This document shows positions 1,527-33,829 of a DNA stretch of 40,619 bases, one piece after another. Position numbers and translations under genes: made by a program. Within the stretch, counting starts at the first letter, position 1, and every line of letters begins with the position of its first letter. The notes under the pieces were generated by a model. The model was not told the origin of the DNA, made no database searches, and saw nothing but the letters and a program-made list of their open reading frames with translations. Source of the DNA: Oscillospiraceae bacterium. Lineage in GTDB: Bacteria; Bacillota; Clostridia; Oscillospirales; Ruminococcaceae. The stretch spans positions 1 to 40,619 of the forward strand of contig JAKSPL010000021.1 of the NCBI GenBank assembly GCA_024404815.1, read 5' to 3'.

Positions 1527-3509
1527 TTAGTGGAGTCTGGCACCGGCAGGGATGTCCTTGTCGGCAAACAGCACCTTGCATCCGCCGTCGGGGAGATCAG
1601 CCGCACAGATCATACCGTTGCTCTCGACACCGCAGAGTTTCACGGGCTTCAGATTGGCAACGAGCAGGACTTTCTTGCCGACTAGGTCCTCAGGCGCATA
1701 CCATTTCGCAATGCCGGACACGACCTGACGCTGTGCAATGCCGTCAAAAAGCTGGAGGCAAAGCAGCTTGTTGGATTTCTTGACCTTTTCGCAGGAAACG
1801 ACCTCTGCAACACGAATATCGGACTGTGCAAAGGTTTCGATACCGATTTCCTCTGCGAACGGTTCGGTTTTTGCAGCTTCCGCCTGCTTTGCCGCTTTTG
1901 CAGCAGCTTCCTGCATTGCCGCAACTTCCGCCATAACAGCCTTTGCATCGACACGCTGGAACAGCGGCTTTGCTTCGCCGACTGCTGCACCATACTGCAC
2001 CATGCCGTCAAATTTCTCGTATCTGCTGATTTCTGCTTCATCCTCAGAAACAGCAGTCTGCGGTGTATGCACAAGGATCTTTGCAGCGGTTTCAGGCATG
2101 AACGGTGCAATCAGACCACCGATGATACGGATACCCGACAGCAGATTGTACATGACCTTTGCAAGACGCGGACGGGCATCGGGATTCTTTGCCAGCACCC
2201 AAGGCGTTGTTTCGTCGATATATTTGTTGCAGCGGCGTGCCAGTTCCATGACGGAATCGACCGCATCGCTGACACGGAAAGCGTCCAGATATTTTGTCAG
2301 GTTTGCAGCGGTTTCTTCTGCCACACGCTGCAAATCCGCATCGCAGTCCTCAGACGGCGCAGATGCGATCAGTTCTTTTTCGGGAACAATGCCGCCGAAA
2401 TACTGGTTGACCATTGCCACGGTACGATTGACAAGGTTGCCGAGCGTATTTGCCAGATCGGAATTGAAGCGTTCAACCATCGTTTCATAGGTGATCGAAC
2501 CGTCCGATGCAAACGGCATTTCGGTCAGCAGATAGTAACGTACTGCGTCCACACCAAAGCGATTGACCAGTTCATCCGCATAGATCACATTGCCGCGGGA
2601 TTTGCTCATCTTGTCGCTGCCAAAGAGCATCCACGGGTGACCAAAAATCTGCTTCGGCAGCGGTGCGCCCAGCATATGCAGCATGATGATCCAGTAAATG
2701 CTGTGGAAACGAACAATGTCCTTACCGATGATATGCACATTGGCAGGCCAGTATTTCTTGTAGAGCTCGCCGTGATTGCCGTTTGCATCGTAACCAAGTG
2801 CGGTGATATAGTTCGACAGCGCATCGATCCAGATGTAGATGACATGGTTATCGTCAAACGGCACAGGGATGCCCCACTTGACGGTGGTACGGGACACGCA
2901 CAGATCCTGCAGGCCAGGCTTGATGAAGTTGTTGAGCATTTCCTTTTTGCGCGATTCTGGATAGATGAAATCAGGATGCTCCTCGATGTATTCTTCCAGC
3001 CACTTCTGATACTTGGACAGTTTCAGGAAATAGGCTTCTTCTCTTGCGTCGCGGACTTCTCTGCCGCAGTCGGGACATTTGCCGTCCACAAGCTGAGATT
3101 CCGTCCAGAAGCTCTCGCAGGGGGTGCAGTATTTGCCGACATACTCGCCCTTGTAGATGTCGCCCTGATCGTAAAGCCGCTGGAAAATGTCCTGAACCGC
3201 CTTGACATGGTAGTCATCGGTGGTGCGGATAAATTTATCGTAAGATGCACCCAGCAGGTCACAGATCGCACGGATCTCGCCTGCGATCTTGTCAACGTGT
3301 TCCTGCGGAGTGATGCCTGTTTCTTTCGCAATTTCTTCGATTTTCTGACCGTGTTCATCGGTGCCTGTCAGGAAGAATACATCATACCCCTGCATTCGGC
3401 GAAAGCGTGCCAGTGCATCGGTCATCACGATCTCATAGGTGTTGCCGATATGGGGCTTGCGCGATGTATACGCGATCGCAGTCGTCAGGTAATAGGGTTG
3501 TTTGTTCAT
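1527..3509 (-). CDS. metG: Methionine--tRNA ligase
   Basis: Charges tRNA-Met with methionine in the cytoplasm. The 660-residue protein has the class I signature HIGN at 20-23, the KMSKS loop at 300-304, and zinc-ligand cysteines C128, C131, C145 and C148 in a CxxC...CxxC knuckle. A C-terminal OB-fold tRNA-binding domain (about 555-660, IRVAEVVSCEKVKKSNKL) is fused, as in the long bacterial form. GGAGG sits 9 bases before the ATG. It has its own promoter (3562-3590) whose boxes overlap the end of the upstream antiporter gene, so it is not dependent on the fluoride switch. No T-box leader is visible in the roughly 45-base 5' UTR. Confidence 0.97.
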   Translation of the reverse strand: MNKQPYYLTTAIAYTSRKPHIGNTYEIVMTDALARFRRMQGYDVFFLTGTDEHGQKIEEIAKETGITPQEHVDKIAGEIRAICDLLGASYDKFIRTTDDYHVKAVQDIFQRLYDQGDIYKGEYVGKYCTPCESFWTESQLVDGKCPDCGREVRDAREEAYFLKLSKYQKWLEEYIEEHPDFIYPESRKKEMLNNFIKPGLQDLCVSRTTVKWGIPVPFDDNHVIYIWIDALSNYITALGYDANGNHGELYKKYWPANVHIIGKDIVRFHSIYWIIMLHMLGAPLPKQIFGHPWMLFGSDKMSKSRGNVIYADELVNRFGVDAVRYYLLTEMPFASDGSITYETMVERFNSDLANTLGNLVNRTVAMVNQYFGGIVPEKELIASAPSEDCDADLQRVAEETAANLTKYLDAFRVSDAVDSVMELARRCNKYIDETTPWVLAKNPDARPRLAKVMYNLLSGIRIIGGLIAPFMPETAAKILVHTPQTAVSEDEAEISRYEKFDGMVQYGAAVGEAKPLFQRVDAKAVMAEVAAMQEAAAKAAKQAEAAKTEPFAEEIGIETFAQSDIRVAEVVSCEKVKKSNKLLCLQLFDGIAQRQVVSGIAKWYAPEDLVGKKVLLVANLKPVKLCGVESNGMICAADLPDGGCKVLFADKDIPAGARLH

Positions 3510-3561
3510 AAATTCATTCCTCCGTATTTGTATTTACAGCAAATGAGCTGCATACTCTGTT

Positions 3562-3590
3562 ATTATATCACACTTTTGCTGCTCCGTCAA
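3562..3590 (-). promoter_or_regulatory. Sigma-A promoter of metG
   Basis: TTGACG (3590-3585), 17-base spacer, TATAAT (3567-3562) on the minus strand. The boxes lie on the last codons of the antiporter gene; the -10 box abuts its TGA stop. Confidence 0.88.
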
Positions 3591-4773
3591 GCTGTTTGGC
3601 TTGTTTCAGCAATTTTCCTGCGGTGTAATCCATCGTCCACGCACCAAACGGAGCCGTCAGCAGAATCGCCACAACTGCCACGCACAGCACCAGATCACCG
3701 CACGGCAATCCCATCGCAAGCGGTATCGCGCCGATCGCCGCCTGAACGGTTGCTTTGGGCGTGTATGCGAGCATACAAAACAGCCGCTCTTTCCATGTGA
3801 GCTTTGTCCCCAGCACCGCACAGAACACCCCTGCCATCCGAAAGCACATCGCACCGACCACCAGAAGCACCGCTTTTCCGCCATATTTCGGGATGCTTTC
3901 CAGATTCACCGCCGCGCCGACCAATCCGAACAGCAAAAGTTCTGCCGCCGTCCAGATTCCGCCGCAATGCGATGCACATTCTTTCGCCCCGTCCGAGTGT
4001 TTCGCGGCCAATGCCATGCCAAGCGTCATCACACCGATCATGCCAGAAATACGAATGCTCTGTTCTGTCCGCGTCTGTACACTCATCAGCAGAAATGCAA
4101 GTGACATCAGCAAAACCGTGCAGAGTACGCCGCGCATCTGCCGTTTCCGCAGGAAAATACCGAGCAAGAGACCGCAGACCGCGCCCAAGATGCCGCCCAG
4201 CAGAATCGAGGTCGGTATCTGTACAAAATCCAGCACAGAAGCCTTTCCGCCAGCAAGAATGCCTGCAAACGCCGAAAACAATACCATGACATACACATCG
4301 TCCGCAGACGCACCGGCCAAAAGCATCTGGGGGATTTGTTTGTTTGTGCCGCGTTTTTCCTCCATCAGTTTCAGCATTCGCGGAACGACCACCGCAGGCG
4401 ACACCGCCGCCAGTACCGCGCCGATGAGCGCCGCCTCCATACGGGAAATCCCGAACAGCGGCGGTGCCAGCAGCCAGACACCCAGCAGTTCTGCCGTTGC
4501 AGGAACAAAACACAGCAAAATCGCTGGTCTGCCTGCCTTTTTGAGCGATGCCACATCCAGCGAAAGTCCTGCCCGCAGCAGAATGATCACCAATGCAAAC
4601 TGCCGCAGCTGTGCAGAAATCGCCATGAGAGAATCATCGAGCAGACCAAACACGCTTCCCAGCAGAAGCCCTGCCGCGATCATGCCCGTCAGTTTCGGGA
4701 GCCGCAGTTTTTCTGCCGCAAATCCCAGTATCATGCCGCCGATCCATAAAAGCGCGATGCCTTCCAGAATCAT
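3568..4773 (-). CDS. CPA-family cation or fluoride/proton antiporter
   Basis: A 401-residue polytopic membrane protein of the monovalent cation:proton antiporter superfamily (Na_H_Exchanger type), with about 12 hydrophobic segments. The paired acids expected in the transport core are seen as ASADD at D158-D159, after a conserved AVSPAVVVPRML segment at about 123-134. The start is the second of two close ATGs: GGAGG lies 7-8 bases before the ATG at 4773 but only 1 base before the ATG at 4779. The gene sits directly behind a terminator-type fluoride riboswitch. Antiporters of this superfamily are a known class of fluoride-switch targets, some of which export fluoride, so fluoride/proton antiport is the likely role. 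That substrate is inferred from the switch, not from a diagnostic residue. Confidence 0.85.
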   Translation of the reverse strand: MILEGIALLWIGGMILGFAAEKLRLPKLTGMIAAGLLLGSVFGLLDDSLMAISAQLRQFALVIILLRAGLSLDVASLKKAGRPAILLCFVPATAELLGVWLLAPPLFGISRMEAALIGAVLAAVSPAVVVPRMLKLMEEKRGTNKQIPQMLLAGASADDVYVMVLFSAFAGILAGGKASVLDFVQIPTSILLGGILGAVCGLLLGIFLRKRQMRGVLCTVLLMSLAFLLMSVQTRTEQSIRISGMIGVMTLGMALAAKHSDGAKECASHCGGIWTAAELLLFGLVGAAVNLESIPKYGGKAVLLVVGAMCFRMAGVFCAVLGTKLTWKERLFCMLAYTPKATVQAAIGAIPLAMGLPCGDLVLCVAVVAILLTAPFGAWTMDYTAGKLLKQAKQLDGAAKV

Positions 4774-4787
4774 ATCCATACCTCCAA

Positions 4788-4893
4788 ACAAAAAAGCCGA
4801 CAACTCCTGCGTCAAATCGCAGAAGTCATCAGCTTTCATTCATCAAGCGGTTTCAGCCATGAAGGCTGTGGGAGAACCTCATTCCCATGTATT
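4788..4893 (-). promoter_or_regulatory. Fluoride riboswitch (crcB motif) with overlapping terminator
   Basis: On the minus strand the RNA starts with P1 GGGAAUGAGGUUCUCCC (4886-4870), then an extra hairpin CAGCC/GGCUG (4868-4854), then AAACCGCUU (4853-4845), loop, AAGC (4835-4832) and UGAUGACUUCU. This matches the crcB layout: P1 with a loop whose GAGGUU can pair with downstream GACUUC (pseudoknot), a short stem GCUU/AAGC, and the conserved GCUGAUG. The 3' part of the aptamer (4834-4818) is also the 5' arm of a 17-pair terminator stem (with 4811-4795, including G-U pairs) followed by TTTTTT, so ligand binding and termination are mutually exclusive. The T tract ends 4 bases before the antiporter ribosome site. 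A possible -10 box GATAAT (4905-4900) overlaps the GH94 stop codon. Confidence 0.87.
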
Positions 4894-4900
4894 TGCGTGA

Positions 4901-7294
4901 TTATCCGAGGACAACCACAATGTCATTATTCTCTGCCAGCGCATCTGCCGCGAGGAAGTTGTCAGCCATCGCCTTGCCGTTGACGGTCATCGACTTAACA
5001 CCGCACTCCACATGATTCGGATTCTGTACGGTGATATTCAGCCATTTTCCGCGGAACAGCTTGCGAATCTTGAAGCTTTCCCAGTCAGACGGGATAGACG
5101 GATCAATGCGCAGACCGCCAAGTTCGGTACGCATACCGCAGATACCCTCGACACAGCCGACCATGACCGTCGATGCCGTACCCGTCAGCCAATGTACGTG
5201 CGAACGGCCTGCGAACGGCGAACGCTTGCTCTCGGTGAACTGTCCGTGTACATACGGCTCCATGACGCGGATCTCCGCCTTATCGTTCATTGCCGCAGGC
5301 GAGGTTTCCATGAAGTATTCAAACGCTCTGTTGCCGTGGCCGAGCAAAGATTCTGCGAGAATCAGCCAGCCCTGCGACTGCGAGAAGATGCCGCCGTTTT
5401 CCTTCGTATCGGGGTTGAAAATGTGCATGAGCGCACCATCAAAATAGTGGTCAATATAGGGCGGTTCAAGCAGTTTTGCACCGTAGGGCGTATTGAGAAT
5501 GCTGTGGACGCTTTCCATTGCGGTTTCGGCCTGTTCTTTGCTTGCGAACTGCGAAATGACCGACCAGCTCTGCGGATTCAGCCACATATTCGCCTCGGGA
5601 TCTTTCTTCGCGCCGACGATCGTGCCGTCCTCGCGGATACCGCGGATAAATCTGTCCTCATCCCAGCACTTGCCGAGAATCTCGGACAAATCCGCCTGAA
5701 TCTTATCGAGATATGCAAGATACTCCGTGTCTTTCTGGTATTCTGCCATATCTTTCATGACGCAAATCGCGTAGTAAAGCTGGAATGCGACAAAGGTCGA
5801 TTCACCCTTTGCACCCAGACGCAGACAGTCGTTCCAGTCCGCGTGCAGACCTGCAGGCATATTGTGATTGCCCAGATGCTCCATCGAGAATTTGATCGCG
5901 CGTTTCAGGTGGTTGTAGACACTGTCCTCGCCGCCGTTTGCATAGACGATGACCTCATCGAGGAACGCCTGATTGCCGCTCTCACCGATGTACTTGACGA
6001 TCGTCGGGAACAGCCAGAGCGCATCGTCTGCACGGTAGGAGGGATGCCCTGTTTCCTTGACGTACTCAGGATCATCGGGCGTATTTTCATGACCTGCGTT
6101 GTGGTTGAACTTGACCAGCGGCAAACCGCCGCCGTTGTCCACCTGTGCAGAAAGCATAAAGCGAATCTTTTCGAGTGCCATTTCAGGATTCAGGTGAATA
6201 ATACCCTGAATGTCCTGCACGGTATCGCGGTAGCCGTAGCCGTTGCGCTCGCCGCAGTAAATGAGCGATGCCGCACGGCTCCAGATGGATGTAATGTAGC
6301 ACTGGTAAGCGTTCCATACGCCGACCATGTTGTTGAATTCCTCGGAGGGTGTTTCAACCTCGAAGTGTGCAAGCTGGTCATGCCAGTAGTCACGCAGATT
6401 TGCGATCTCTGCATCTGCCTTGCCTGCTTCCTCGTACTTTTTGAGGATCTCCGCAGCCTCTGCCGCATTGCGCTGACCGAACACGTAGATCAAAGTACGG
6501 GTTTCATTCGGCTGGAGTGTGATCTCCGACTGCAATGCGCCGCAGGAATTGGAGTTGTAGTTCATCATGCCGTCGCAGACACCATTCTCCACAGCAATCG
6601 GGTTGGAATAGGTGCGGTACGGGCCGATAAAGCTCGATAGATCGCCGTTTGCGGAGTTCACAGGCGCACCGACCATGCCGAAGAAACGCTCCATATGGTT
6701 AGAGCCTGTTTCATCTCTGCCGGAGTTCTCGTTGATATGCTGGACGATGCAGTTGCCGCCTTCCAGACTGGTGCGCGAGATGAACAGCGTGTACTGCAAA
6801 TTCACCTGATCCTGCTGATAGTTGCTCTCATTGGTGAATTCGATGAAGCCGAACACGGAAAGGGTACGCGGCTTTTCGGACTTATTTGTGATCTTGCACT
6901 GCCATACCTCATAGGTATCAGGAACATAGTAGGTCGTTTCGGACTTGATGCCAGCGTACTCAGAGGTAATGACGGTATAAGCCGTGCCGTGGCGGCAGAC
7001 GCTGCGGTATTCTTCCAGCGGCTTGCCGACAGGCTGCCACGATGCAGACCAGTAATCCTTGCTCGCGTTGTCGCGGAGATAGATGTATCTTCCGGGGAGC
7101 GACATCATGGAATTGAAACGGAAACGTCCGATTCTGCCGTTTGCACCGCTCTTGACAAAGCTGTATCCTGCGGCATTGTTGGTAATGATCGCACCATACT
7201 CAGGATCGCCGAGGTAGTTCGACCATGCGGCAGGGGTATCGGGACGGGTAATGACATACTCTTTGTTTTTTAGGTCAAAGTAACCGAAATTCAT
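4901..7294 (-). CDS. GH94 glycoside phosphorylase (cellobiose/chitobiose phosphorylase type)
   Basis: Cytoplasmic enzyme expected to split a beta-linked disaccharide with inorganic phosphate, giving a sugar 1-phosphate without spending ATP. The 797-residue length and domain order (N-terminal beta sandwich, helical linker, alpha/alpha barrel, C-terminal beta cap) fit GH94. The N terminus GYFDLKNKEYVITRPDTPA is typical; the general acid is D489 in HADWNDCL; the barrel has GYRDTVQD and, near the end, HWLTGTAST of the phosphate site. There is no signal peptide. Overall pattern (NNAAGYSF, YLRDN, DYWSASWQPV) resembles diacetylchitobiose phosphorylase about as much as cellobiose phosphorylase, so the substrate is left open. 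AGGAGG precedes the ATG by 9 bases and a promoter lies at 7370-7398. Its only visible terminator is that of the fluoride switch. Confidence 0.92.
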   Translation of the reverse strand: MNFGYFDLKNKEYVITRPDTPAAWSNYLGDPEYGAIITNNAAGYSFVKSGANGRIGRFRFNSMMSLPGRYIYLRDNASKDYWSASWQPVGKPLEEYRSVCRHGTAYTVITSEYAGIKSETTYYVPDTYEVWQCKITNKSEKPRTLSVFGFIEFTNESNYQQDQVNLQYTLFISRTSLEGGNCIVQHINENSGRDETGSNHMERFFGMVGAPVNSANGDLSSFIGPYRTYSNPIAVENGVCDGMMNYNSNSCGALQSEITLQPNETRTLIYVFGQRNAAEAAEILKKYEEAGKADAEIANLRDYWHDQLAHFEVETPSEEFNNMVGVWNAYQCYITSIWSRAASLIYCGERNGYGYRDTVQDIQGIIHLNPEMALEKIRFMLSAQVDNGGGLPLVKFNHNAGHENTPDDPEYVKETGHPSYRADDALWLFPTIVKYIGESGNQAFLDEVIVYANGGEDSVYNHLKRAIKFSMEHLGNHNMPAGLHADWNDCLRLGAKGESTFVAFQLYYAICVMKDMAEYQKDTEYLAYLDKIQADLSEILGKCWDEDRFIRGIREDGTIVGAKKDPEANMWLNPQSWSVISQFASKEQAETAMESVHSILNTPYGAKLLEPPYIDHYFDGALMHIFNPDTKENGGIFSQSQGWLILAESLLGHGNRAFEYFMETSPAAMNDKAEIRVMEPYVHGQFTESKRSPFAGRSHVHWLTGTASTVMVGCVEGICGMRTELGGLRIDPSIPSDWESFKIRKLFRGKWLNITVQNPNHVECGVKSMTVNGKAMADNFLAADALAENNDIVVVLG

Positions 7295-30764: not shown

Positions 30765-32405
30765 ATGAAATCTTCCTATGTTCGCCGTCTGACCGCTGCG
30801 ATTCTTGCAGGTTCTGCGGTCCTCTGCTGCGTGACAGGCTGCGGCGATGAAAGCAGCGATGCTGCGATTGATCTGAGCGCAAAAGAATTCGCGGATATTT
30901 TGTATACCAAAGTTCCGCTCTCCGATAATCTTTCCTATCAGGACGGCAACACCATGGGACTCCTGATGAACCTCGGTGAATACACCGATGCGGCAGGCTA
31001 TACCGCAAACGGTCAGATTCCCGATATGATCGCCGTGTTCTGCGGTGCGGACAATACACAAGCGGAAACACTGGAAACCGCCATGCACGCCTATCTCAAT
31101 GAAATGACGCGCGAATATGAAAAATATGCACCCGAACAGGTCGAAAAACTCGAAAACGCTGTGGTGAAGTCCGCAGGCAACTATGCAGTTCTCTGCGTCA
31201 CCCCCGACGCAAAAACCGCTAAGCAGGTCATTTCCGATGTATTCGAAACGGGCACCTGCAAGCTCGCAAATCTCCGTGCGCTGCCAAACGGTGACAATGC
31301 GCCCGCAGAAACACAGCCGACAGCAGAGGAAACCCTGCCGCAGAGCGATATGACAGATATGCCGCTGCAATCGGACGATACAGCACCGCTCATGTCAGAT
31401 GCCACCGCAGAACCGGCAGGCTCGGAAACGACTTCCGCGCAGACCACACTCGGCGGCACCAATCCTGCACCGTCTGGCGAAGTCCCGATCGCTGCACAGA
31501 ACGATTTTCAGGATTTCGGCGCGGTGTTCCGCGACGGTGATACCGCATATGAGGCATTCTACTACAACGATGCCTATACCACACAGTATGCCAATGCACT
31601 CAACAATTTTGTCGGAAAAGTCCCCTCGACTGTCCATATCTACGATATGCTGATCCCGACAAGTGCAGGCATCACGCTCCCTGACGACCTTGTCGGCAAA
31701 GCAAACGCCGCAGACCAGAAAGATGCCATCAGCAAGACCTTTGCAAAGCTGAACAGCAGCGTCAAACAGGTCAACCTCTACGATATGATGCGTTCACACC
31801 GCGGAGAATACATCTATTTCCGCACCGACCACCATTGGACTGCACTCGGCAGCTACTACGCATTCGCGGACTACTGCAAACTCGCAGGCAGAACCGCTCC
31901 TGCACTTTCCAACTATACACCGAAGGATTTCACAGGCTTCCTCGGCTCGTTCTTCCGCGATACCAATGAACACCCGTCACTCGGTGCAAACCCCGATACC
32001 ATTACCGTCTACTATCCGCCGCACTATGACGATATTACCCTCCAGTACACCGACACCGACGGCAACACAAAAGACTGGCATCTCATTTCGGACGTCACCG
32101 ACTATATGGCACGTCTGAAATACTCCACCTTCGCCAGCGGCGACAACCCGATGGTCACGACCGTCAACAACGCGGTCACGGACGGCTCTGTCTGCATTCT
32201 CGTCAAGGAATCGTTCGGCAATGCACTGATTCCGTACCTCGCAGACGTCTACCAGTATGTCTATGCGTTCGACTATCGTTATGACACACGCGATTTCAAA
32301 GCGTTCGTGTCCAAATTCCCCAATGCGGATGTCATTTTTGCAAACAATATGTCCGCACTCCAGAGCAGCTACTCCTGCGGTAAAATCGCAGCGTATCTCG
32401 GTTAA
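30765..32405 (+). CDS. Lipoprotein fusing DUF4358 and DHHW (AlgJ/AlgX-like) domains
   Basis: A 546-residue exported lipoprotein: basic start, hydrophobic core, and lipobox VTGC with C26. Residues about 35-165 fit DUF4358 (LSAKEFADIL, IPDMIAVFCGAD, AVLCVTPDAKTAKQVI). Residues about 170-245 are a T/P/A/S-rich linker. The C-terminal half (250-546) is a DHHW domain, related to the SGNH-like acetyltransferases AlgJ/AlgX: D355-H356-H357-W358 in YFRTDHHWTALG and S483 in LVKESFGNALIPYL supply a plausible Asp-His-Ser triad. Role inferred: transfer of acetyl groups outside the membrane, with the MBOAT protein encoded next. GAAAGGA precedes the ATG. DUF4358 proteins are usually separate, so the fusion is unusual to me. 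Confidence 0.82.
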   Translation: MKSSYVRRLTAAILAGSAVLCCVTGCGDESSDAAIDLSAKEFADILYTKVPLSDNLSYQDGNTMGLLMNLGEYTDAAGYTANGQIPDMIAVFCGADNTQAETLETAMHAYLNEMTREYEKYAPEQVEKLENAVVKSAGNYAVLCVTPDAKTAKQVISDVFETGTCKLANLRALPNGDNAPAETQPTAEETLPQSDMTDMPLQSDDTAPLMSDATAEPAGSETTSAQTTLGGTNPAPSGEVPIAAQNDFQDFGAVFRDGDTAYEAFYYNDAYTTQYANALNNFVGKVPSTVHIYDMLIPTSAGITLPDDLVGKANAADQKDAISKTFAKLNSSVKQVNLYDMMRSHRGEYIYFRTDHHWTALGSYYAFADYCKLAGRTAPALSNYTPKDFTGFLGSFFRDTNEHPSLGANPDTITVYYPPHYDDITLQYTDTDGNTKDWHLISDVTDYMARLKYSTFASGDNPMVTTVNNAVTDGSVCILVKESFGNALIPYLADVYQYVYAFDYRYDTRDFKAFVSKFPNADVIFANNMSALQSSYSCGKIAAYLG

Positions 32406-32431
32406 TTATCAGAAAGGAATCGGCTTAACCT

Positions 32432-33829
32432 ATGGTATTCAGCAGTCTTATCTTCCTCTGCGGCTTCCTGCCCGTCACCATTATCGGCTATCGGCTGCTC
32501 CCGCAGCGGTTCCGCAATCTCTTCCTGCTCGTCATGAGCCTGCTGTTTTATGCATGGGGTGAGCCGATTTATATTTTGCTGATGGCGGCGTCCATTCTCG
32601 TCAACTATCTCGGCGGACTGTTCGTTGCAAATGCACAGCGCAGACGTCCAAACGGCGGAAAATTCGCCCTCGCAGTCACTTCGATTATTGACATCGGACT
32701 GCTCGGATTTTTCAAGTACACCGATTTTATCATCGGTACTGTCAATTCGCTTGCGGATGCAGGACTTTCCCTGCTGAAGATTGCGCTGCCCATCGGTATT
32801 TCATTCTACACATTTCAGGCAATGTCCTATGTCATTGACGTCTACCGCAAAGAGGTTCGCGTACAGCGCAGCCTCATCAATTTCGCCATGTACGTAACGC
32901 TGTTTCCGCAGCTCATTGCAGGTCCGATCGTCCGCTATGCGGATGTCGAAAACCAGATCGAAAAGCGAAACGACAATGCGGCAATGTTCTGGTCGGGCGT
33001 TGTGCGGTTCAGCATCGGTCTTGCCAAAAAAGCACTCCTTGCCAATCAGGCAGGCAAACTCTGGGACACCATCTCCGCACAGGCAGATATTCCTGCGGCA
33101 ACTGCATGGCTCGGCGCGATCGCTTTTACCTTCCAGATCTATTTTGATTTTTCGGGGTATTCCGATATGGCGATCGGTCTTGGCAGAATGTTCGGTTTCG
33201 AATTTGTCGAGAACTTCCGCTACCCTTACCAGTCCGACAGCATCACCGATTTCTGGCGCAGATGGCATATCACCCTCAGCACTTGGTTCCGTGAGTATGT
33301 CTACATCCCGCTCGGCGGCAACCGCAAGGGCAAAGGACGTCAGATCTTCAACCTGTTTGTTGTCTGGGCACTGACGGGGCTCTGGCACGGTGCAGGCTGG
33401 AATTTCCTCTGCTGGGGCCTGTATTTCTTCGTTCTGCTCGTGCTGGAAAAGAATTTCCTGCTTGATCTGCTGAAAAAGCTCCCTGCGATATTCCGACACC
33501 TCTACGCCCTCGTGCTGATCGTTCTGGGCTGGGTGCTGTTTGCGATTGAGGATTTCTCCGCACTCGGTACCTACTGCCGCTCGCTCTTTGGCGGAAGCGG
33601 CGGATACAATGAACAGACGCTCTATCTGCTCGGCAGCTATGCGGTGCTTCTTGTGATCATGGCGATCGCCTCCACAGAACTGCCTGCACGCATCGGGAAA
33701 TTCTTCTGCAAGCACGCAGGTGAGGGTGCGGTCGTACTGGAAACCATCTGGACGATCGCAATGCTTGTCCTGAGCGTTTCCGCTATTGTCGCAGACAGCT
33801 ACAATCCGTTTTTGTATTTCCGATTCTGA
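32432..33829 (+). CDS. MBOAT O-acyltransferase (AlgI/PatA-like)
   Basis: A 465-residue polytopic membrane protein of the membrane-bound O-acyltransferase family, which moves acetyl groups from the cytoplasm to exported glycans. The N terminus MVFSSLIFLCGFLPV and the blocks LPIGISFYTFQAMSYVIDVY, LFPQLIAGPIVRY, FDFSGYSDMAIGLGRMFGF and DFWRRWHITLSTWFREYVYIPLGG (two H/R-rich loops) are AlgI-like; the catalytic histidine is H319 in LTGLWHGAGWNF. The ATG has AAAGGA at a long spacing of 13 bases. It lies 26 bases after the DUF4358-DHHW gene and 18 before the second DHHW gene; I infer one functional unit. Confidence 0.92.
   Translation: MVFSSLIFLCGFLPVTIIGYRLLPQRFRNLFLLVMSLLFYAWGEPIYILLMAASILVNYLGGLFVANAQRRRPNGGKFALAVTSIIDIGLLGFFKYTDFIIGTVNSLADAGLSLLKIALPIGISFYTFQAMSYVIDVYRKEVRVQRSLINFAMYVTLFPQLIAGPIVRYADVENQIEKRNDNAAMFWSGVVRFSIGLAKKALLANQAGKLWDTISAQADIPAATAWLGAIAFTFQIYFDFSGYSDMAIGLGRMFGFEFVENFRYPYQSDSITDFWRRWHITLSTWFREYVYIPLGGNRKGKGRQIFNLFVVWALTGLWHGAGWNFLCWGLYFFVLLVLEKNFLLDLLKKLPAIFRHLYALVLIVLGWVLFAIEDFSALGTYCRSLFGGSGGYNEQTLYLLGSYAVLLVIMAIASTELPARIGKFFCKHAGEGAVVLETIWTIAMLVLSVSAIVADSYNPFLYFRF

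Follow-up and report, generated by a model that had tools for sequence, protein, structure and literature searches.

A fluoride riboswitch before an NHA2/SLC9B-like cation:proton antiporter gene in an Oscillospiraceae genome, and the recurrence of this pairing across a bacterial antiporter family

Fluoride riboswitches located before genes for Na+/H+ antiporters have already been published (Baker 2012, as cited in PMC11139923), and the 2024 review citing them places such antiporters second in frequency only to the exporters among fluoride-riboswitch genes and assumes for them a role in pH homeostasis (PMC11139923). One described example is the riboswitch-linked antiporter operon CD0656-7 of C. 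difficile (PMC11477304). An ON arrangement, in which a terminator overlaps the aptamer, was predicted already in the first description of the motif (PMC2864571).

The locus described here lies on a 40,619-nucleotide stretch of DNA from an Oscillospiraceae bacterium (contig JAKSPL010000021.1 of assembly GCA_024404815.1; hereafter the window) and is a further case of this published pairing (Table 1). As in CD0656-7, a fluoride riboswitch is found upstream of an antiporter gene, whereas the C. difficile operon also holds a CLC gene, and no second gene is evident at the window locus. Within the open-access PMC literature, no prior description of such antiporters as an NHA/SLC9B-like family with coupling as tight as that reported below was found. 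CLC-F, for its part, is not a CPA protein. The premise of the first-pass annotation that fluoride exporters of the CPA superfamily are known finds no support in a 2026 paper, which gives two classes of protein for fluoride export, CLC-F and CrcB/Fluc (PMC13104614); the annotation's placement of the riboswitch and gene at 3568-4893 was correct to within 2 bases.

Table 1. Features of the antiporter locus, numbered from the first position of the window
Feature	Coordinates	Strand	Basis
Methionine--tRNA ligase gene, downstream neighbour	1527..3509	-	872.6 bits with NF008900 (cut-off 598)
Promoter-like TTGACG-17-TATAAT where the antiporter gene ends, a possible metG promoter	3562..3590	-	Consensus scan, 11/12
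NHA2/SLC9B-like cation:proton antiporter gene, CPA superfamily, 401 aa	3568..4773	-	PF00999; nearest structure NHA2 7b4l
Shine-Dalgarno GGAGGT	4780..4785	-	Read directly
Intrinsic terminator hairpin, 20 pairs, expression platform; 5' arm holds aptamer strand GCUGAUGACUUC	4792..4837	-	
Fluoride (crcB) riboswitch aptamer RF01734	4813..4895	-	cmscan 46.2 bits, gathering score 34, model 1-64/64
GH94 glycoside hydrolase/phosphorylase family gene, upstream neighbour	4901..7294	-	PF17167, 464.6 bits

On the antiporter family tree, proteins identical or close to those of Butyricicoccus, a Flavonifractor and a Faecalibacterium record group with its order and family mates, which points to a host of Oscillospirales/Ruminococcaceae type, probably a gut bacterium; its genome, in 59 contigs, is 84% complete. 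The first-pass annotation suggested a fibre degrader of gut or rumen, and the upstream neighbour of the locus is a GH94 gene. Elsewhere in the window, at 30765-33829 on the plus strand, the gene for a DHHW protein adjoins one for an MBOAT O-acyltransferase, a kind of gene pair familiar from polysaccharide acetylation.

The claim that the leader is a crcB RNA was borne out by the covariance-model search that had been proposed for it: with cmscan over the whole window, the entire RF01734 model was matched above its gathering score at an E-value of 8.1e-10, and this was the single above-cut-off match in the genome, other Rfam candidates there falling below threshold at 12-17 bits. The crcB layout reported at the outset can be read in the sequence in all its parts, namely P1 (GGGA/UCCC), the P1 loop GAGGUU, AAACCGC, GCUU/AAGC and GCUGAUGAC, and the GAGGU of the loop is complementary to an ACUUC further 3', a pairing that we take to be the aptamer pseudoknot of this riboswitch class. 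Among 20 distinct leaders from related genomes, 98% of the pseudoknot cells and 92.5% of the P1 cells are paired, with two-sided changes at one pair in each helix; the paired-cell share and the two-sided changes exceed those of nearly all shuffles, and the count of pair types does not. The 126-nt leader has a folding energy of -49.6 kcal/mol (z -4.92), and none of 200 shuffles was as good. Compared with the RF01734 class, nothing essential differs, since the whole model is matched and P1, the loop pseudoknot and the terminator overlap are all in common, and the window leader adds a potential hairpin between P1 and AACCGC. A hairpin-capable stretch of variable length occurs here in 20 of 22 aligned leaders, being absent from the Fluc-linked L150 and L156. 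The window leader is confirmed as a fluoride riboswitch; by analogy with its class, it would bind fluoride and follow an ON logic.

A match arising by chance, or a leader that has decayed and lost its function, is very improbable at this locus given the E-value, the complete pseudoknot and terminator, and the intact 401-aa gene that follows. Decay does occur elsewhere, as intact aptamers scoring above the gathering threshold stand before broken antiporter genes in three genomes of the same genus (G016:C21, G018:C42 and G019:C20) and in one of the same family (L254, G118:C34, 140-425); the breaks are internal deletions or stops, and these cases suggest recent loss in some species. An intact close homologue is present in just 3 of 30 same-genus genomes (G000, G015 and G018, the window's own genome being counted), so the gene is accessory in the genus, and broken copies are found in G016, G018 and G019.

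The first-pass annotation had also described a terminator sharing a strand with the aptamer. Both the terminator and the overlap stand, the aptamer 3' strand GCUGAUGACUUC being part of the terminator 5' arm, while the length was understated at 17 pairs, as the hairpin has 20 pairs and a 6-nt loop followed by a T-rich tail. Terminator-like sites number three in the 2-kb region versus 1.8 in shuffles, and this hairpin (4837-4792) is by far the longest. The same overlap with the conserved aptamer strand was computed in 52 of 61 leaders, comprising the window and 60 named homologues (51/60 without the window), L095 being excluded from the count since its riboswitch lies 2.2 kb upstream. The nine leaders with no overlap include three from Bacteroidales (L108, L123 and L129), two with weak hairpins only (L118 and L145) and four more; in L084, L119, L132 and L140, the failure may stem from the choice of motif or hairpin. 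Because the terminator 5' arm is shared with the aptamer, fluoride should turn on the antiporter gene. Intracellular fluoride, together with Mg2+, would bind the nascent leader RNA, and the bound aptamer would hold GCUGAUGACUUC, block the overlapping terminator and allow transcription to continue into the antiporter gene.

The leader ends, as had been noted, just before the ribosome site of a CPA-type antiporter, with the GGAGGT located 6 nt upstream of the ATG at 4773; a second in-frame ATG, at 4779, abuts it. A consensus scan returned no promoter upstream of the aptamer, and a GATAAT immediately 5' of the aptamer is our guess at a promoter element. As only about 6 nt separate the end of the GH94 gene from the aptamer, the leader promoter would lie inside that gene, or the leader would be transcribed by readthrough from it. 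The promoter-like site at the far end of the antiporter gene is a weak candidate for metG, because the one site found in the region compares with 1.3 in shuffles.

The antiporter gene is intact, and its product scores 135.8 bits against PF00999 (cut-off 26.2), its only Pfam match; no NCBIfam model matched above cut-off. Membership in the CLC-F family (PF00654) and in the Fluc/CrcB family (PF02537) was considered and neither model was matched, and the NCBIfam models for K+/H+ antiporters reached 60.9 bits at best against a cut-off of 355. The protein thus shares with CLC-F (6d0j) a position behind fluoride riboswitches and the character of an antiporter but belongs to a different Pfam family, and it shares the same position with Fluc/CrcB, whereas Fluc is a channel. 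The closest solved sequences are those of mammalian NHA2 (7b4l, E 9.2e-37; 7p1i, E 2.4e-32), with 4cza and 4cz8, both "Na+/H+ antiporter, putative", following at a wide distance (E 2e-05), and 124 of 377 positions are identical between NHA2 and the window protein. In a tree of the window protein and 35 random family members, NHA2 and the bacterial family stand together, apart from 14 further CPA proteins of the order, with support of 100/100; the NHA2 branch is long, and its position outside the bacterial members has support of only 89/69, so whether it lies beside or within the family is unsure. The window protein lacks the long N-terminal region of mammalian NHA2, its residue 10 aligning with chain residue 126, and since the N-terminal extra helix of NHA2 is missing, kinship is claimed at the level of the family and not of NHA2 itself. 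At the other end, two plasmid-borne cyanobacterial members, L296 from Picosynechococcus PCC 7002 and L298 from Leptolyngbya, have a longer C-terminus (538 and 541 codons, respectively).

For NHA2 (SLC9B2), exchange activity and its loss in a double-aspartate mutant are experimental findings, and the residues at or near the ion site include E214, D277, D278, R431, K459 and T461 of the bison protein (PMC8850199). In the window protein, these correspond to E95, D158, D159, R312, K340 and T342. Among 146 family members, E95 and R312 are kept in all 146 and D158, D159, K340 and T342 in 145 each, whereas in the 14 other CPA proteins both aspartates are kept and the remaining four positions differ, with P or a gap at E95, K at R312, R or Q at K340, and E or G at T342. 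The first aspartate is replaced by S, giving S-D for D-D, in L292 and both of the cyanobacterial members examined (L296 and L298), and the second by G in L142. Two segments lining the NHA2 site, for which TM5 and TM12 are our own labels, are identical between the window protein and NHA2 at 14/18 and 12/17 positions, and the segment around the two aspartates at just 5/15. Judged by this site, the window protein would most simply be a monovalent cation/H+ exchanger. A different substrate cation whose level turns toxic or unbalanced in the presence of fluoride, such as K+ or a divalent ion, is improbable, as the site matches that of a Na+/Li+ exchanger, although the 2024 review states that other ion transporters are over-represented in fluoride-related operons (PMC11139923).

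The association between riboswitch and antiporter family was computed in an even sample of 295 genomes of the window's order (the order sample). There, 46 genomes hold 47 homologue places, of which 43 carry a riboswitch, 41 above cut-off and two weaker (the filters of the genome search lose weak matches), and the four places without one are in G227, G102, G246 and the second copy of G198. The 41 riboswitches, 40-203 bp upstream of their homologues, make up most of the 48 found above cut-off in the sample, the remainder preceding a Fluc gene (three), a CLC gene (one) or none of these: G081 has the first of its two riboswitches in such a place, in G118 one stands upstream of a broken antiporter gene, and in G258 one stands upstream of another gene. 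Eleven weaker matches were divided among the antiporter (two), Fluc (two), CLC (one) and none of these (six). Only 5 of 30 Fluc places in the same sample carry a riboswitch, a sixth, in G044, having been seen in a separate search only, and the 2024 review places about 15% of Flucs and about 30% of CLC-Fs under riboswitches (PMC11139923). Coupling far tighter than this, together with the family's hold on 41 of the order's 48 riboswitches, argues for a rival and, in our judgement, rather unlikely reading, namely that the antiporter itself exports fluoride, by F-/H+ exchange or HF export, and forms a third exporter family next to Fluc and CLC-F. The ion site, being that of a proven Na+/Li+ exchanger, argues against it, and we know of no NHA-type protein that transports an anion.

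The pairing extends well beyond the order sample. Among close relatives, six more homologues (48-55%) carry a riboswitch above the gathering score and that of G015 lacks one. Elsewhere in the phylum, 18 of 21 places were fetched (not the window's own, G049, which was already included, or G538, which is partial at a contig start), and 16 of these 18 homologues, 35-49% identical, have a riboswitch above gathering, L284 and L286 being the exceptions. In a tblastn search, 798 plasmid records were matched, mostly from Klebsiella and Escherichia, and in 12 of the 798 one place covered at least 80% of the query. All six plasmid homologues examined, from Acetoanaerobium, Peptoclostridium, Ilyobacter, Cetobacterium, Picosynechococcus and Leptolyngbya, have a riboswitch, which in Peptoclostridium lies upstream at a distance of about 570 bp, beyond a CBS-domain gene; the other six of the 12 records are four of Picosynechococcus, one of Synechococcus and one of Cetobacterium. 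Among the best 80 of 562 named loci, which are top matches and not a random sample, 61 have a riboswitch, four (L091, L138 and two from Brachyspira) have a weak match at the corresponding position, and the other 15 lack both; at one of the 15, just about 30 bp of sequence precedes the gene. Of the 58 strong riboswitch matches in the named set, 56 lie at most 250 bp from the protein match, the others being 724 bp (L132) and 2.2 kb (L095) away. The riboswitch-linked bacterial NHA/SLC9B-like family occurs in Bacillota, Bacteroidota, Fusobacteriota and Cyanobacteriota.

On a tree of the family, members with no riboswitch are scattered among those bearing one (15 changes for 19 rows), some of them clustering in a group rich in Lachnospiraceae, and this scatter is read as repeated loss. 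Excluded from the tree were L078, L098, L101, L051 (internal stop), L053 (short) and L273 (duplicate), as well as distant CPA loci with no tblastn match (L050, L052, L060, L061 and L069).

Several other arrangements were encountered. On the Enterobacter hormaechei plasmid pHD7405-NDM (L299, 2516-3064), a truncated "cation:proton antiporter" gene adjoins rmtB; the product of this truncated gene is related, at 43%, to the C-terminal portion of the family. In L256 (G081:C25, 3865-2051, minus strand) and L095 (Anaerotignum neopropionicum, 2720-4540), the riboswitch is followed by a two-gene unit, presumably encoding an iron-sulfur-scaffold-like protein and a GGGTGRT-motif protein, and then by the antiporter; in G081, the unit and the antiporter each have their own riboswitch. 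In L255 (G258:C10, 301-1611), a 36-bit fluoride riboswitch precedes a gene with no known link to fluoride, which by its look we take to be methyltransferase-like.

The complement of other fluoride genes bears on the exporter reading in both directions. Neither a Fluc nor a CLC gene was found in the window's genome, also by tblastn with CLC-F, an absence that is provisional given the completeness and fragmentation of that assembly. In the order sample, no Fluc was found in any of the 46 genomes with the antiporter, versus 26 of the 249 without it (Fisher p 0.02, uncorrected for relatedness), and in 20 of the 46 neither a Fluc nor a CLC-F-branch gene was found; both observations favour export by the antiporter. 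A CLC is, however, commoner in genomes with the antiporter (30/46) than in those without it (114/249; E 0.001, four below the family cut-off), and 26 of the 46 have a gene of the CLC-F branch, which count against it. The 30 CLCs comprise 26 that score closer to riboswitch-linked CLC-F and four that score closer to a CLC with a GREGP motif, which we take to mark the chloride type; the label "CLC-F branch" is a sequence score, and the fluoride selectivity of the 26 is putative, as the GREGT/V element of the CLC-F signature is present in one of them and most have GREGA. One CLC compared with solved structures had the fluoride CLC 6d0j as its best match (E 1.5e-61). In G018 (L017, G018:C74, 1501-1964), a further fluoride riboswitch stands before a CLC-F-like gene with a GMGLI motif, which is cut by the contig end and escaped the Pfam search, a caveat for the counts above.

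The tight coupling suggests a protein useful mainly at high fluoride, and the likeness of its ion site to that of NHA2 suggests cation-for-proton exchange. Taken together, they point to a Na+(Li+)/H+ antiporter dedicated to fluoride stress rather than to a fluoride exporter, a reading that we consider reasonably probable. The NHA2/SLC9B-type protein would exchange protons against a monovalent cation, most probably Na+ or Li+, and, being made during fluoride stress, would correct the cytoplasmic pH and the transmembrane pH difference disturbed by the entry of HF. Outward proton movement would ease the acid load, and inward movement would diminish the pH gradient by which fluoride is trapped.

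Several observations weaken this reading. An exchanger for pH homeostasis should be under varied control, and most of the members examined are under a fluoride riboswitch. A second PF00999 antiporter gene is present in the window's genome, so ordinary cation/H+ exchange may exist there already, and with no Fluc or CLC found in that 84%-complete assembly, nothing else is known to remove fluoride. One of the two aspartates is also lost in the four members noted above (L142, L292, L296 and L298). It is conceivable, if doubtful, that the bacterial NHA/SLC9B-like family constitutes a third dedicated fluoride-exporter family, working with an ion site known from an animal Na+/Li+ exchanger.

What the comparison provides is the singling out of one coherent family, mostly under a fluoride riboswitch, whose closest solved relative is mammalian NHA2 and whose genomes are often without a known fluoride exporter. 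With a defined set of proteins, the question of the substrate, Na+/H+ or F-, becomes directly testable.
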